DNA of 57,527 bases from Caldilineales bacterium (lineage in GTDB: Bacteria; Chloroflexota; Anaerolineae; JAAEKA01), in the NCBI GenBank assembly GCA_025055015.1, contig JANWYQ010000114.1, forward strand, positions 1 to 57,527, read 5' to 3'. A program made the translations under genes and the position numbers. Numbering within the stretch: the stretch's first letter is position 1; each line of letters begins with the position of its first letter. Below the pieces are notes generated by a model. The model was not told the DNA's origin. It ran no database searches and saw nothing but the letters and a program-made list of their open reading frames with translations. Below are positions 8,688-13,615 of the stretch, in pieces.

Positions 8688-9170
8688 CTAGCGAAGCCGC
8701 AGCCAGCGCAGGTCGGCCAGGGCCACGCGGATCGAGCCGTCGTCGCCGATGAAGCGCTCCACGCTGTCCGACGGAAAGCTGATCAGGTCGAAGGGCGCGG
8801 TTCGCCCCAGGCCGTCCAGAGCTCTGGCCACGATGGCCTGCACCGGCTCCAGGCTGGCGTTCCAGCGGCCCCAGGCGAAGTGGGTGTGGCGGTAGCGGCG
8901 GGCCAGCGAGCGCACCTTGGCCACGCTCACCTCCCCCGCCTCGGCCCAGAAGATGGGCTGGCCGTCCGGCCCTAGGGCCACCACGTCCGGCTTGTAGCGG
9001 TCGCCCACCGAGATCTCCACCGTCAAGGCGGGGTATTGGGGCAGGTAGAGGGCCCACAGCAGCGCTTTCATCACCACGTGTTCGCTGCTCTCGTTGGGTC
9101 GCTTGACGAACACCACCTGCCGGCCATAGGCGCGCAGGGTCCATTTGCGGGGGAGATGGTCGGGGGGCAT
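8688..9170 (-). CDS. YaeQ-like protein (PD-(D/E)XK nuclease superfamily)
   Basis: 160 residues, close to the usual YaeQ length of about 180. Seen: NESSEHVVMKALLWALYLPQ near 29-48, then the candidate nuclease core YKPDVVALGPDGQ with FWAEAGEVSVAK about ten residues on, matching the D-x(n)-E-x(n)-K pattern. YaeQ is structurally a PD-(D/E)XK fold protein of unclear function; the assignment is by pattern and moderate. The start at 9170 abuts a repeat array and has no Shine-Dalgarno sequence. It precedes the DUF429-like gene in the same direction, giving a pair of predicted nuclease-fold proteins. Confidence 0.55.
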   Translation of the reverse strand: MPPDHLPRKWTLRAYGRQVVFVKRPNESSEHVVMKALLWALYLPQYPALTVEISVGDRYKPDVVALGPDGQPIFWAEAGEVSVAKVRSLARRYRHTHFAWGRWNASLEPVQAIVARALDGLGRTAPFDLISFPSDSVERFIGDDGSIRVALADLRWLRLR

Positions 9171-9213
9171 CGGTGAACGGTAGACGGTGAACGGTGAACG
9201 GTGAACGGTAGCC
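9168..9213 (+). repeat. 8-base CGGTGAAC tandem repeat array, copy B
   Basis: At least five near-perfect CGGTGAAC/CGGTAGAC units in tandem. The array begins as ATCGGTGAACGG exactly at the start codon of the YaeQ-like gene, which reads the other way. Palindromic elements follow immediately. Confidence 0.85.
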
Positions 9214-9223
9214 GATACGCGGA

Positions 9224-9405
9224 GTTCGCACCCCCAGGTGCGAACCCGCCGCGCCGGGAGGACGGACGGCGCCTGGGGGCGCCTCGCTCCGCTGACATGT
9301 TGGCTGTCAAGCCGTGGAGTTCGCACCCCCAGGTGCGAACGGCCACGCCGTCAGCCGCGGAGTTCGCACCCCCAGGTGCGAACGGCCGCACCCCTAGGTG
9401 CGAAC
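9224..9405. repeat. Cluster of GTTCGCACC/GGTGCGAAC palindromes
   Basis: Three perfect copies of a 22-base palindrome (arms GTTCGCACC and GGTGCGAAC, four-base loop) at 9224-9245, 9319-9340 and 9362-9383, plus a half copy at 9388-9405 whose left arm is damaged. A related copy is at 57319. Spacing between copies is irregular (73, 21 and 4 bases). Confidence 0.9.
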
Positions 9406-9545: not shown

Positions 9546-12092
9546 TTAGAAGTTGGCCAGATAGAACAGCGCGTGCAGCGCCATGGGCAACGCGGCCAGC
9601 GCCAGGCCGACCGCCATACGCCCGGCGCCCGCCAGGCCCAGCCGCCGGCCAACGGCCATCCCCATGCCCAGGGCCAACAGGGCCAGGCTGCCGAAGGCCA
9701 GCGCCACGGCCAGGTGGATCACCACCACAAACAGGTAGTCCAGAAAGGACGTGGCCCCGGCGGTGATGTCTCCGGGCGCCAGCGCCCAGGCCGGCGGCAA
9801 CCAAAGCGCCACGGCCAGCAGCAGCCCGATCAGCGGACCGTAGGTCGGCAGCAGGGGATCGCTCGATCGTCGCCCCAGCCAGAGGGTGTACCAATCGGTC
9901 AGGAGCACAGCCACCAGCGCCAGCGCCAACAGCAGGCCGAGTCGAGAGACGGGCGCCGGATAGGCCAGTCCCAGCAGCAGGACGAGCGCCAGCCAAGCGG
10001 GCCAGTAGCGGGCCACGGCGGTGCGCACGACGGCCTGCAGCCGACCGAGCCCCCGGCGCCAGGCGGGTGCGTCCTGGAATGCCGGCTGGGTCGGCATCAC
10101 GGCCGTCCACGCGCGACGGAACTCCTCCGCCGTGGCGTAGCGCTGCGCGGGCTCACGCGCCCGCGCCCTGGCCAGCACGATCTCCAGCGCAGGGGTTACG
10201 CCCGGCGCCAGCTCGTCCACGGGTCGGTAGGCGCCCTGGCCCGGGTTGACGCCGGTCAGCAGCTCGTAAGCCAGCGTGCCCAGCGCGTACACGTCCGTGC
10301 GGGCGTCCACCGGGCCGCCCATCGCCTGCTCCGGCGCCAAGTAGGCGGCAGTGCCGGCCGGCAGCTCCACCGCCGACGGCTGCCCGGCCGCCAGGTCCAC
10401 GGCCAGGCCGAAGTCAATCAGCTTGACCTCCCCCTCCACCAGGAAGACGTTGGACGGCTTCAGGTCCCGGTGCACGATGCCCTGGCCGTGGGCAAAGCTG
10501 AGCGCGTCGCAGGCCTGCTGTACGATGCGGTCCACCTCGTCCAGGCCCAGCCGGCCCCGCTCGGCCAGGACCGCGGCCAGGCTGTGAGGGCCCAGGTACT
10601 CCATGGCCAGGAAGTAGCGCCCCTGGTGCTGCTGAAAGTCCAGGTAGCGCACGATGTGGGGGTGGTCCAGGCGCTGCAGCAGCTCCGCCTCGCGGCGGAA
10701 GCGGCGCAGTGCGGCCTCCGTGCGCATCAGGCTGCGGTCCAGCAGCTTGACCGCCACCGGCCGGCCGGCCAGGGTGTCGGCTGCGCGGTAGACCACCCCC
10801 ACGCCCCCCCGGCCCAGCACGCCGTCAATCCGATAGCGCGCGGGCAGCATGGCCAGGTCCGGGCGCAGCGCCGCCGCCCGCTGATAGGCTTCCAGCGCGG
10901 CCTCCCACTCTCCCAGCTGCAGGTGGACATGGTGGAGGTTGTAGTGGGCTTCGGCCATTGCGGGCTCCACGGCCAGAGCCTGCTGGTAGAGGCGGCGGGC
11001 GGCGTCGTAGTTGCGGCGGGCGAACTCCACGTTGCCCTGGCGCAGCCACACCTGGGCAGAGCCCGGCTCCGGCGGCAGCGCCGCGGCCAGGCGCTCGTAG
11101 GCCCCGCGCACCGCTTCCACGTCCCGCACCTGGTCCGGCGTCAGCAGCAGTACGTCGCTCCCTTCCACCAGCTCGCCGATGCCCAACCGGTCGTAGACCG
11201 CGGCCACCGCCTGCGCCAGCGCGGCCAGGTCCGCAGGCGTGGCGCGCGGGGCCTGGGAGATGTGCTCCACCGGCGGCAGCGCGAGCTTGCGCCCCTCCGC
11301 CTCGGCCACTGCCGTCGCCAGCGCGTAGAGGAAAGCCACCGGCTTCGCCCCTACCGGCTGGAAGCCGCGCGCCTCCCACTGGGCTGCGTCTTGGGGCCGA
11401 CTGACTGCGCCGACCACGAAGGCGGGCATGCGGTGGTCCCGCAGCTCGTGGCGGATCTCGTGGTAGATGCGCACCAGCACCGAGTCGTAGTCCGCGGCGT
11501 AGCCGACCAGCAGCAGCGCGTTGTGGGCCACCAGGTCGGCCAGGCGCCGCTTCAACCCCTGGAGCTGGTAGAACACGTCCAGCTGATCGTCCTCGGTGAT
11601 CACCATGGCGTCGGGCCGGTCCACGTCGCCGTAGGGCTTGTAGACGATCAGCCGGCCGTCGGCGGGCTGGTGCAGGGCCTCCACCGCCGAGTAGACCACG
11701 CTGTAGGCTGCGCCGTGGCGGTCCAGGCACTGCTCCAGCAGCCGATCCCACCCCGCCTGCACCACTGTGCGGAAGGGGATGCGCGCCGTCAGCTCGTGGA
11801 CGGGCAAGGGGCGGTAGATGGGCTGGTCCAGCCGCTGCCGTAGGTAGCTCACCAGGCTATGGCGCCCCTGGCTGTGCGTGTAGATCTGCGCGATCTGGGG
11901 CAGGGGCTTGTAGCCTCCGCGGTGGCCGCAGCGCTCCGCCAGCTCCAGGGCAAGCTGGCCGCTGGTGGGCAGCCCCAGGTAGCCGTCGGCGGTCTCCGCA
12001 GCGTCCGGCCCCAGGAAGAGGACGCAGCGCCGCCGCACGATGCTCTCCACCAGCGTCGGAGGCAGCGCGACAGCGTCGGTAGCCATGACCAT
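9546..12092 (-). CDS. SIR2-like / TPR / serine-threonine kinase / multi-span membrane fusion protein
   Basis: 848 residues with four parts. (1) Residues about 1-280 resemble the SIR2-like fold: RRRCVLFLGPDAAE at the start and ALLLVGYAADYDSVLVRIYH later. (2) About 325-410 are two TPR units (WLRQGNVEFARRNYDAARRL, AHYNLHHVHLQLGEWEAALE). (3) About 420-680 are a Hanks-type kinase: GRGGVGVVYRA loop, AVKLL lysine K449, HRDLKPSNV with D543, KLIDFGLAV, and TAAYLAPEQA, so all catalytic residues are present. (4) From about 700 on there are four to five membrane spans. The kinase probably faces the cytosol. The start overlaps the stop of the upstream gene (TGATG), indicating translational coupling. The order SIR2-TPR-kinase is unusual; NAD use and targets are unknown. 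Confidence 0.9.
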   Translation of the reverse strand: MVMATDAVALPPTLVESIVRRRCVLFLGPDAAETADGYLGLPTSGQLALELAERCGHRGGYKPLPQIAQIYTHSQGRHSLVSYLRQRLDQPIYRPLPVHELTARIPFRTVVQAGWDRLLEQCLDRHGAAYSVVYSAVEALHQPADGRLIVYKPYGDVDRPDAMVITEDDQLDVFYQLQGLKRRLADLVAHNALLLVGYAADYDSVLVRIYHEIRHELRDHRMPAFVVGAVSRPQDAAQWEARGFQPVGAKPVAFLYALATAVAEAEGRKLALPPVEHISQAPRATPADLAALAQAVAAVYDRLGIGELVEGSDVLLLTPDQVRDVEAVRGAYERLAAALPPEPGSAQVWLRQGNVEFARRNYDAARRLYQQALAVEPAMAEAHYNLHHVHLQLGEWEAALEAYQRAAALRPDLAMLPARYRIDGVLGRGGVGVVYRAADTLAGRPVAVKLLDRSLMRTEAALRRFRREAELLQRLDHPHIVRYLDFQQHQGRYFLAMEYLGPHSLAAVLAERGRLGLDEVDRIVQQACDALSFAHGQGIVHRDLKPSNVFLVEGEVKLIDFGLAVDLAAGQPSAVELPAGTAAYLAPEQAMGGPVDARTDVYALGTLAYELLTGVNPGQGAYRPVDELAPGVTPALEIVLARARAREPAQRYATAEEFRRAWTAVMPTQPAFQDAPAWRRGLGRLQAVVRTAVARYWPAWLALVLLLGLAYPAPVSRLGLLLALALVAVLLTDWYTLWLGRRSSDPLLPTYGPLIGLLLAVALWLPPAWALAPGDITAGATSFLDYLFVVVIHLAVALAFGSLALLALGMGMAVGRRLGLAGAGRMAVGLALAALPMALHALFYLANF

Positions 12093-13615
12093 CAGCACCA
12101 CCGTCCGCTGTTGATGCAGTAGTCGCGCTTGCCGCAGCCGGAGCGGCACCACAGAGCCGTGCAGGGCGACCCCCCGCCAGTGCGACAGGGCCGGACAATA
12201 AAGCTTCCTTCCACCACGTCGCACGGCGTGGGCTGCTCCTGGCCGGCGACCGGCTCTCCCAGCGTCGTCACCTCCTCGGCCGCCGCGTAGGCGTAGCGGT
12301 TGAGCCCTTCGTCCAACCACATGAACTGGGTCAGCCAGCGGCCCTGGTGGTGCACCCACAGCAGGTCAACCCGGTAATCGGCCGGGGCCAAGTCCATGGG
12401 GTTGCCGTTCCAGTCGAAGACATCGCCGGGCAGCGGCTGCAGCACGCGCATCACGGCGATGGGCGCAGCCGTCTCGGTGATGGTCACCGCCGGCTGCCAG
12501 GGGACGGCGGCGGTGGTCCGGGCCAGCCCATGCACTGCGGCGGTCTTCTTGATCACCTCCAGCTCTAGGCGGTCGGCCGGGTAGGGCTCCGTTGCGGCGA
12601 TCACCAGGTCCGGGTAGCAGTCGGCCGGGCTATCTTTCTCCAGGGCCGCAGCGCATTTGCTGATGGCCTCGGAGCTCACCACGGCGGCCACGGCGGTCTC
12701 GGTGAAGACGATCGCATCCGACGGCAGCAGATTGGCCCCGCCCAAACTCTTGACAGTGGCCGAGATCATTGCTTCATTCGCCGGGTGGCCGAAGGCGGCG
12801 GTGCGCACGTTGAGACAAGCCTGGTAGACCTGCTGGCTGAAGCAGAGCTGATTGGGCGCGATGAAGCTGCGCGGCGGCTGCTTAGAAGCGTATTGCGTCT
12901 GGGAGGCCTCGTCCTTCGGCCAGAGCGAGCGCAGCTGCCAGGTGCCCTCCAGGGCAGCCGTGCCGGCTTCCGCGCGGAGCTGGAACTTCAGGCTGGAGAG
13001 GTCCGGTGTGCGGTAGAGCAGCACCAGGTAGTTGCCGGCCGGCAACCAGGCTTGCTCACCGCCGAGCGCTCCGCTGGGGCCGCCGATCTCCACGGACTGT
13101 CCTTGATACACCAGCAGGCCGCCGACAACCAAGGCCTGATCTCCCCAGGGGTAGTCGGGGCTGAGCAAAACATCCTCTGCCTCGGTTGGGGAAACGACCT
13201 GCAACAGGCCTCCCTCCCCCGGGATGGCTTGCGTGGTGGCAGCGTCGCGGTTGAAGACCATGTGGTCGGCCAAGTTGACGATCTCTCCCCGCTCCCGCAG
13301 CCTGCCGTACAGCGCCTCGAGCTGCTCTACGCGGGGCGACGGCGGCGGCACGTGGGACTGGCGCCGCTCGACCTGTTCCGTTGCTTTCAGGATCGCCTCC
13401 AACTGCGAAGCGTTGGGCGCCTGCAGCACAAAGGGGGGCGTTTTAGGAGTTGGCGTTTGCGAAGGGGACACGGGTGGTTGGGGTGTCGGGCTCCCCATTG
13501 ACGCAAGCGCTGCGCAGCGGGCCGCCGACAGGGCCACGAGGAGCAGCAGGAGGGCCACGGTAGCTATGGGAACCCAAGGGGGCAGCCGATCGGGGATGGG
13601 GGCGTTGGTTTTCAT
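12092..13615 (-). CDS. Secreted or membrane-anchored protein of unknown function with Cys-rich tail
   Basis: 507 residues, not recognised. A single hydrophobic segment near 14-34 (WVPIATVALLLLLVALSA) is a signal anchor or signal peptide. A Pro/Thr-rich stretch (TPQPPVSPSQTPTPKTPP) follows, then a predicted coiled region near 75-115, a beta-rich centre, and a final 45 residues with about seven cysteines (CRTGGGSPCTALWC and after). The tail suggests disulfide cross-linking outside the cell or a metal site. Start chosen at 13615 because GAGGAG lies about ten bases upstream. Its stop overlaps the kinase start, so the two proteins are probably made together; sensor and kinase partner is a fair guess only. 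Confidence 0.75.
   Translation of the reverse strand: MKTNAPIPDRLPPWVPIATVALLLLLVALSAARCAALASMGSPTPQPPVSPSQTPTPKTPPFVLQAPNASQLEAILKATEQVERRQSHVPPPSPRVEQLEALYGRLRERGEIVNLADHMVFNRDAATTQAIPGEGGLLQVVSPTEAEDVLLSPDYPWGDQALVVGGLLVYQGQSVEIGGPSGALGGEQAWLPAGNYLVLLYRTPDLSSLKFQLRAEAGTAALEGTWQLRSLWPKDEASQTQYASKQPPRSFIAPNQLCFSQQVYQACLNVRTAAFGHPANEAMISATVKSLGGANLLPSDAIVFTETAVAAVVSSEAISKCAAALEKDSPADCYPDLVIAATEPYPADRLELEVIKKTAAVHGLARTTAAVPWQPAVTITETAAPIAVMRVLQPLPGDVFDWNGNPMDLAPADYRVDLLWVHHQGRWLTQFMWLDEGLNRYAYAAAEEVTTLGEPVAGQEQPTPCDVVEGSFIVRPCRTGGGSPCTALWCRSGCGKRDYCINSGRWC

Follow-up and report, generated by a model that had tools for sequence, protein, structure and literature searches.

A SIR2_2 domain is generally taken to be a weapon that depletes NAD, and SIR2 NADases need an Asn and a His, among them N112 of ThsA and H146 of KomC. 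In DSR2, both N133 and H171 are required for full NADase activity (PMC10981675), and in Avs5 the N110A substitution abolishes immunity (PMC12931631). Here, we analyzed a gene pair from a Caldilineales bacterium, located in a stretch of 57,527 nucleotides of contig JANWYQ010000114.1 (the window), in which such a domain is joined to tetratricopeptide repeats (TPRs), a Ser/Thr kinase and a membrane tail. Our results show that the gene pair is a real and rare unit, conserved and unusual, and, as judged from its sequence, a membrane Ser/Thr kinase of a new variety, in which the head is a pseudo-SIR2 and the external partner is a protein of its own. No published description of a SIR2-TPR-kinase-membrane fusion was found in the literature searched.

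Both genes are open frames on the reverse strand. The downstream gene (9546..12092) codes for P0001, a fusion protein of 848 aa, and the upstream gene (12092..13615) for P0002, a predicted anchored extracytoplasmic protein of 507 aa; the stop of one and the start of the other overlap in a TGATG (12090..12094, reverse strand), with base 12092 shared by the two translations. A preliminary description of this DNA had given the fusion the order SIR2-like region, two TPRs, Hanks-type kinase with intact catalytic residues and four to five membrane spans, and had coupled it through this overlap to a membrane-anchored protein with a seven-Cys tail. Pfam, motifs and hydropathy agree with that account throughout. 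From the N-terminus, a SIR2_2 domain at about residues 10-268 (11289..12065) is followed by two TPRs at residues 346-412 (10857..11057, Pfam TPR_11 and TPR_16) and by the kinase domain at residues 415-672 (10077..10850). Pfam Pkinase matches residues 420-619 with 162 bits, and all the motifs are intact: GRGGVGVVY at 427, VAVK at 446-449, HRDLKPSN at 541, DFG at 560 and APE at 586. The closest NCBIfam match of this domain, below cut-off, is PknB_PASTA.

Behind the kinase, simple hydropathy predicts five hydrophobic helices in residues 692-845 (9558..10019), at 692-710, 713-731, 754-772, 787-805 and 827-845. The inner loops are positive, in keeping with the positive-inside rule, and the modelled external loops have just 2, 14 and 3 residues, so that by hydropathy no extracellular sensor domain is found in the P0001 chain. 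The full-length orthologue P0005, from genome G393 of another family (40% identity overall), has the same helix count and loop charge pattern. In both orthologues, the topology modelled from hydropathy places the kinase inside, next to five membrane segments, and the C-terminus outside.

The N-terminal part of P0001 was proposed to have a SIR2-like fold, and this is confirmed by sequence comparison and by modelling. Pfam SIR2_2 (PF13289) matches residues 113-246 with 54.5 bits against a cut-off of 24.5, and P0001 alone matches ThsA at 8e-9; a two-sequence profile searched against the PDB found ThsA (1.2e-10), KomC (8e-9) and DSR2 (5e-6). An AlphaFold model whose alignment drew on 26 relatives from viral contigs reached a mean pLDDT of 86 and a pTM of 0.85, and was preferred to a single-sequence model with a pLDDT of 37. 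Foldseek placed ThsA, KomC and DSR2 on it at probability 1.00 with TM-scores of about 0.7 to 0.8 (0.75/0.79 for KomC), an agreement partly dependent on the sequence match, since the model alignment itself consisted of other SIR2 proteins. The modelling did not give the non-SIR2 fold that would have spoken against the preliminary description.

The residues that carry the chemistry have been lost from this fold. In the alignment with ThsA, the catalytic Asn is replaced by Gly114 (11751..11753; TTN-D to AGWD) and the catalytic His by Tyr154 (11631..11633; K-HGD to KPYGD). P0005 has Gly and Tyr at the same two sites, and a third fusion, P0006 of genome G041, has Ala and Tyr. The preliminary description had overlooked the absence of the two residues from P0001. 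The preliminary description pointed to NAD depletion by SIR2-like domains and suggested an NAD-dependent kinase; the first idea is unsupported because the catalytic Asn and His are replaced in both orthologues, and the second meets a GAG nucleotide motif that has also drifted, to GPD in P0001. The loss of Asn and His led us to reject an NADase effector. That the protein could still deplete NAD upon infection, as an active SIR2 NADase-kinase using non-canonical residues, seems to us highly improbable: SIR2_2 membership and the fact that its closest solved relatives are NADases speak for it, but both residues are replaced in all three fusions, and in DSR2 and Avs5 alanine substitutions here weaken or eliminate activity or immunity (PMC10981675, PMC12931631).

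Identity between P0001 and P0005 is 46.5% in the SIR2 domain, 48.6% in the TPRs, 45.0% in the kinase and 28.7% in the membrane part. Since the SIR2 domain is conserved as well as the adjoining kinase, whereas a domain in decay should have drifted further, we read it as a conserved functional pseudo-enzyme, which would be kept for something besides NAD cleavage. One such use would be metabolic sensing, in which the kinase would be gated by a SIR2 fold that still takes up NAD, ADP-ribose or a similar nucleotide but does not cleave it. The strong conservation of the domain, the high model confidence of the fold, and the retention of D116 of the TTNxD motif and of the leading Gly of GAG fit this possibility, but the change of GAG to GPD, together with the loss of Asn and His, makes it unlikely.

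A wider context for the domain comes from SIR2 relatives in the host's class. Of 47 SIR2 domains retrieved from it, only 6 keep both catalytic residues, a figure that is no census because the sample was gathered with a query itself lacking both residues. Most of the SIR2_2 domains in this query-biased sample are without one or both of them. The replacements are lineage-specific, with Arg/Gln in a branch of SIR2-nSTAND1-membrane proteins, Trp/Tyr in another and Ala/Tyr elsewhere. Because the losses follow lineage, they suggest stable non-enzymatic versions of the domain and not decay. An association between a membrane tail and loss of the catalytic pair was dropped (0/16 versus 6/32, Fisher p 0.16).

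Some of these relatives are fused to nSTAND1, together either with HEAT repeats and membrane helices or with an FGE-sulfatase domain; others are fused to NACHT, caspase, CHAT, EAD7 or, along with TPRs, NB-ARC. In genome G374 (G374:C12, L077 1-2564), a SIR2_2 gene with altered N- and H-sites is directly preceded by a kinase gene with the degenerate catalytic loop HLNVHPRT and passes into a PP2C-like stretch where the contig ends; the 61-residue fragment of this stretch had no Pfam match and a PDB phmmer E of 0.0025, so we call it PP2C-like and no more. In G041 (G041:C23, L041 3440-5050), a SIR2-caspase fusion gene lies directly after the gene of the third SIR2-TPR-kinase fusion. The SIR2 module thus sits among signalling and conflict proteins, with two links to Ser/Thr phosphorylation.

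These relatives bring up a role in biological conflict, either anti-phage or cell suicide, in which the pseudo-SIR2 would be a decoy or adaptor that also occurs in STAND, caspase and CHAT proteins, with the kinase as the signalling output of a receptor. Fusions to conflict domains across the class, the SIR2-caspase gene adjoining the third fusion and the altered SIR2 gene beside a degenerate kinase gene in G374 all fit such a role, as does the use of inactive enzyme domains, a known theme of these systems (PMC7159879). However, the setting of the pair does not favor a defence island, because its neighbours in the window are housekeeping genes (RsmF, PPDK, inositol phosphate synthase), and no defence gene was recognised beside it there. 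P0001 gave no whole-protein match to a known anti-phage system; its PADLOC matches are generic and confined to the kinase domain. An external sensor would also be untypical of conflict systems. The defence role raised in the preliminary description is thus left without backing from the neighbourhood, and we regard a conflict receptor as doubtful, though less so than a metabolic sensor.

Two further features of the window lie on the 3' side of the kinase gene. Just beyond it, positions 9224-9405 hold four copies, one of them cut short, of the 22-nt near-palindrome GTTCGCACCCCCAGGTGCGAAC. Some 70 exact-pattern copies occur in the genome in small clusters and a reversed control pattern gave none; the repeat looks like a REP-type intergenic element. 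A small gene follows at 8688-9173, with a weak YaeQ match of 17 bits against a cut-off of 25.

The upstream protein P0002 has near its start a hydrophobic signal anchor at residues 14-32 (13520..13576, hydropathy 2.36), which is followed by a Pro-rich stretch, and seven Cys are found in its final 43 residues (465-507; 12095..12223). It matched no Pfam, NCBIfam or PADLOC family, and no known sensor fold or family was matched. In G393, its homologue P0003 (BLASTP E 2e-17) is encoded directly upstream of P0005. The two G393 genes are about 95 nt apart, or an alternative start lies near the upstream stop, whereas those of the window overlap. P0003 has a LAAGC lipobox where P0002 has its anchor, and a shorter tail with four Cys; four core Cys are conserved between the two proteins.

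The third fusion also has a P0002-like gene directly upstream, coding for P0007, which is cut by the contig end, with 268 residues present and two Cys at its end. P0007 matched the upstream protein at an hhalign E of 7e-4 in a single comparison, with Smith-Waterman z of 4 against P0002 and 1 against P0003, and a HMMER sequence-profile test alone was not significant; its homology to P0002 is marginal. Its fusion partner P0006 differs from P0001 and P0005, both of which have the glycine loop, Lys, HRD, DFG and APE, in that its kinase is degenerate (HLDLRPEN, NYG and loss of the VAVK lysine). Catalysis is therefore not needed in every fusion.

Among 396 class genomes, with the fusion judged from the SIR2 matches examined, the P0002-like gene occurred in the same three genomes as the fusion and always immediately upstream; this co-occurrence is circular in part, as rows from G393 and G041 were in the search profile, and its non-circular part is that the partner was found in no fusion-less genome and that P0003 was matched by sequence alone. 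Two other matches to P0002 were discarded, one weak and with internal stops (G024) and one in an antisense low-complexity frame (G049). In the order to which G393 belongs, 45 further genomes were searched and none has the pair; a search of genome contigs with the whole of P0001 gave matches in the kinase or TPR region and no SIR2 fusion, and query A3 had no match in viral contigs. A single origin of the fusion was not retained, since the three fall on one side of a branch with a support of only 43. In total, two full pairs were recovered, plus one with a truncated and marginal partner. These searches, which the preliminary description had proposed, indicate that the pairing of P0001 and P0002 is genuine and that it recurs in one other genome and probably in a third.

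Because hardly any of the kinase is predicted to lie outside, and a co-conserved, overlapping gene supplies an anchored external domain, we propose with moderate confidence that the pair forms a transmembrane Ser/Thr receptor kinase split over two genes, with its external sensor on P0002 and a pseudo-SIR2-TPR control head. Against this reading stand the small number of pairs, the degenerate kinase of P0006, the gap between the two genes in G393 and the failure of P0002 to match any known sensor. P0002 is probably the external sensor that P0001 is missing, and the signal-controlled kinase with an outside partner put forward in the preliminary description is the best reading of the pair. In such a receptor, P0002 would be anchored at the membrane with a disulphide-type domain outside, where it would detect a signal, and would contact the five-helix membrane tail of P0001; the cytoplasmic kinase would then phosphorylate its targets. 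The pseudo-SIR2 and the TPRs may act as a control module for docking, oligomerisation or, less surely, ligand binding. It is also possible, but more tentative, that the dead SIR2 module is what gates the split receptor kinase, perhaps in response to an NAD metabolite, with the sensor on a separate, co-translated gene.

If this is true, Ser/Thr phosphorylation would be under the control of a SIR2 fold used non-enzymatically. A dead SIR2 domain conserved as strongly as the intact kinase fused to it points to a non-enzymatic signalling life of the fold. A split receptor kinase would also be a small and testable system, made of an outside protein, a membrane tail, a kinase and a dead-enzyme control module.

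Inactive enzyme domains, inactive kinases included, also serve as modules in the VMAP and iSTAND conflict systems (Kaur 2020, PMC7159879; SIR2 is not named there); unlike these systems, the window has no recognised MoxR, vWA or STAND component. The SIR2_2 NADases of defence systems, namely ThsA, DSR2, Avs5 and KomC, are the best matches in sequence and fold, and like P0001 they have a SIR2 fold without the zinc module that is fused or coupled to signalling parts. However, P0001 lacks the catalytic Asn and His, and what follows its SIR2 domain is TPRs, a kinase and membrane helices, where those NADases have SLOG, STAND or repeat domains. With the pseudo-SIR2 STAND proteins of the class (SIR2-nSTAND1-HEAT-TM, for example G000:C142), it has in common an altered N-terminal SIR2 domain and a multi-helix membrane tail, but in the middle TPRs and a kinase stand in place of the STAND ATPase. 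As in PknB-type membrane Ser/Thr kinases, a Hanks-type kinase is predicted at the cytoplasmic face of the membrane; unlike those proteins, which have one helix, P0001 has five predicted helices, a SIR2-TPR head and no extracellular domain of its own, and its extracellular part probably comes from a separate gene.
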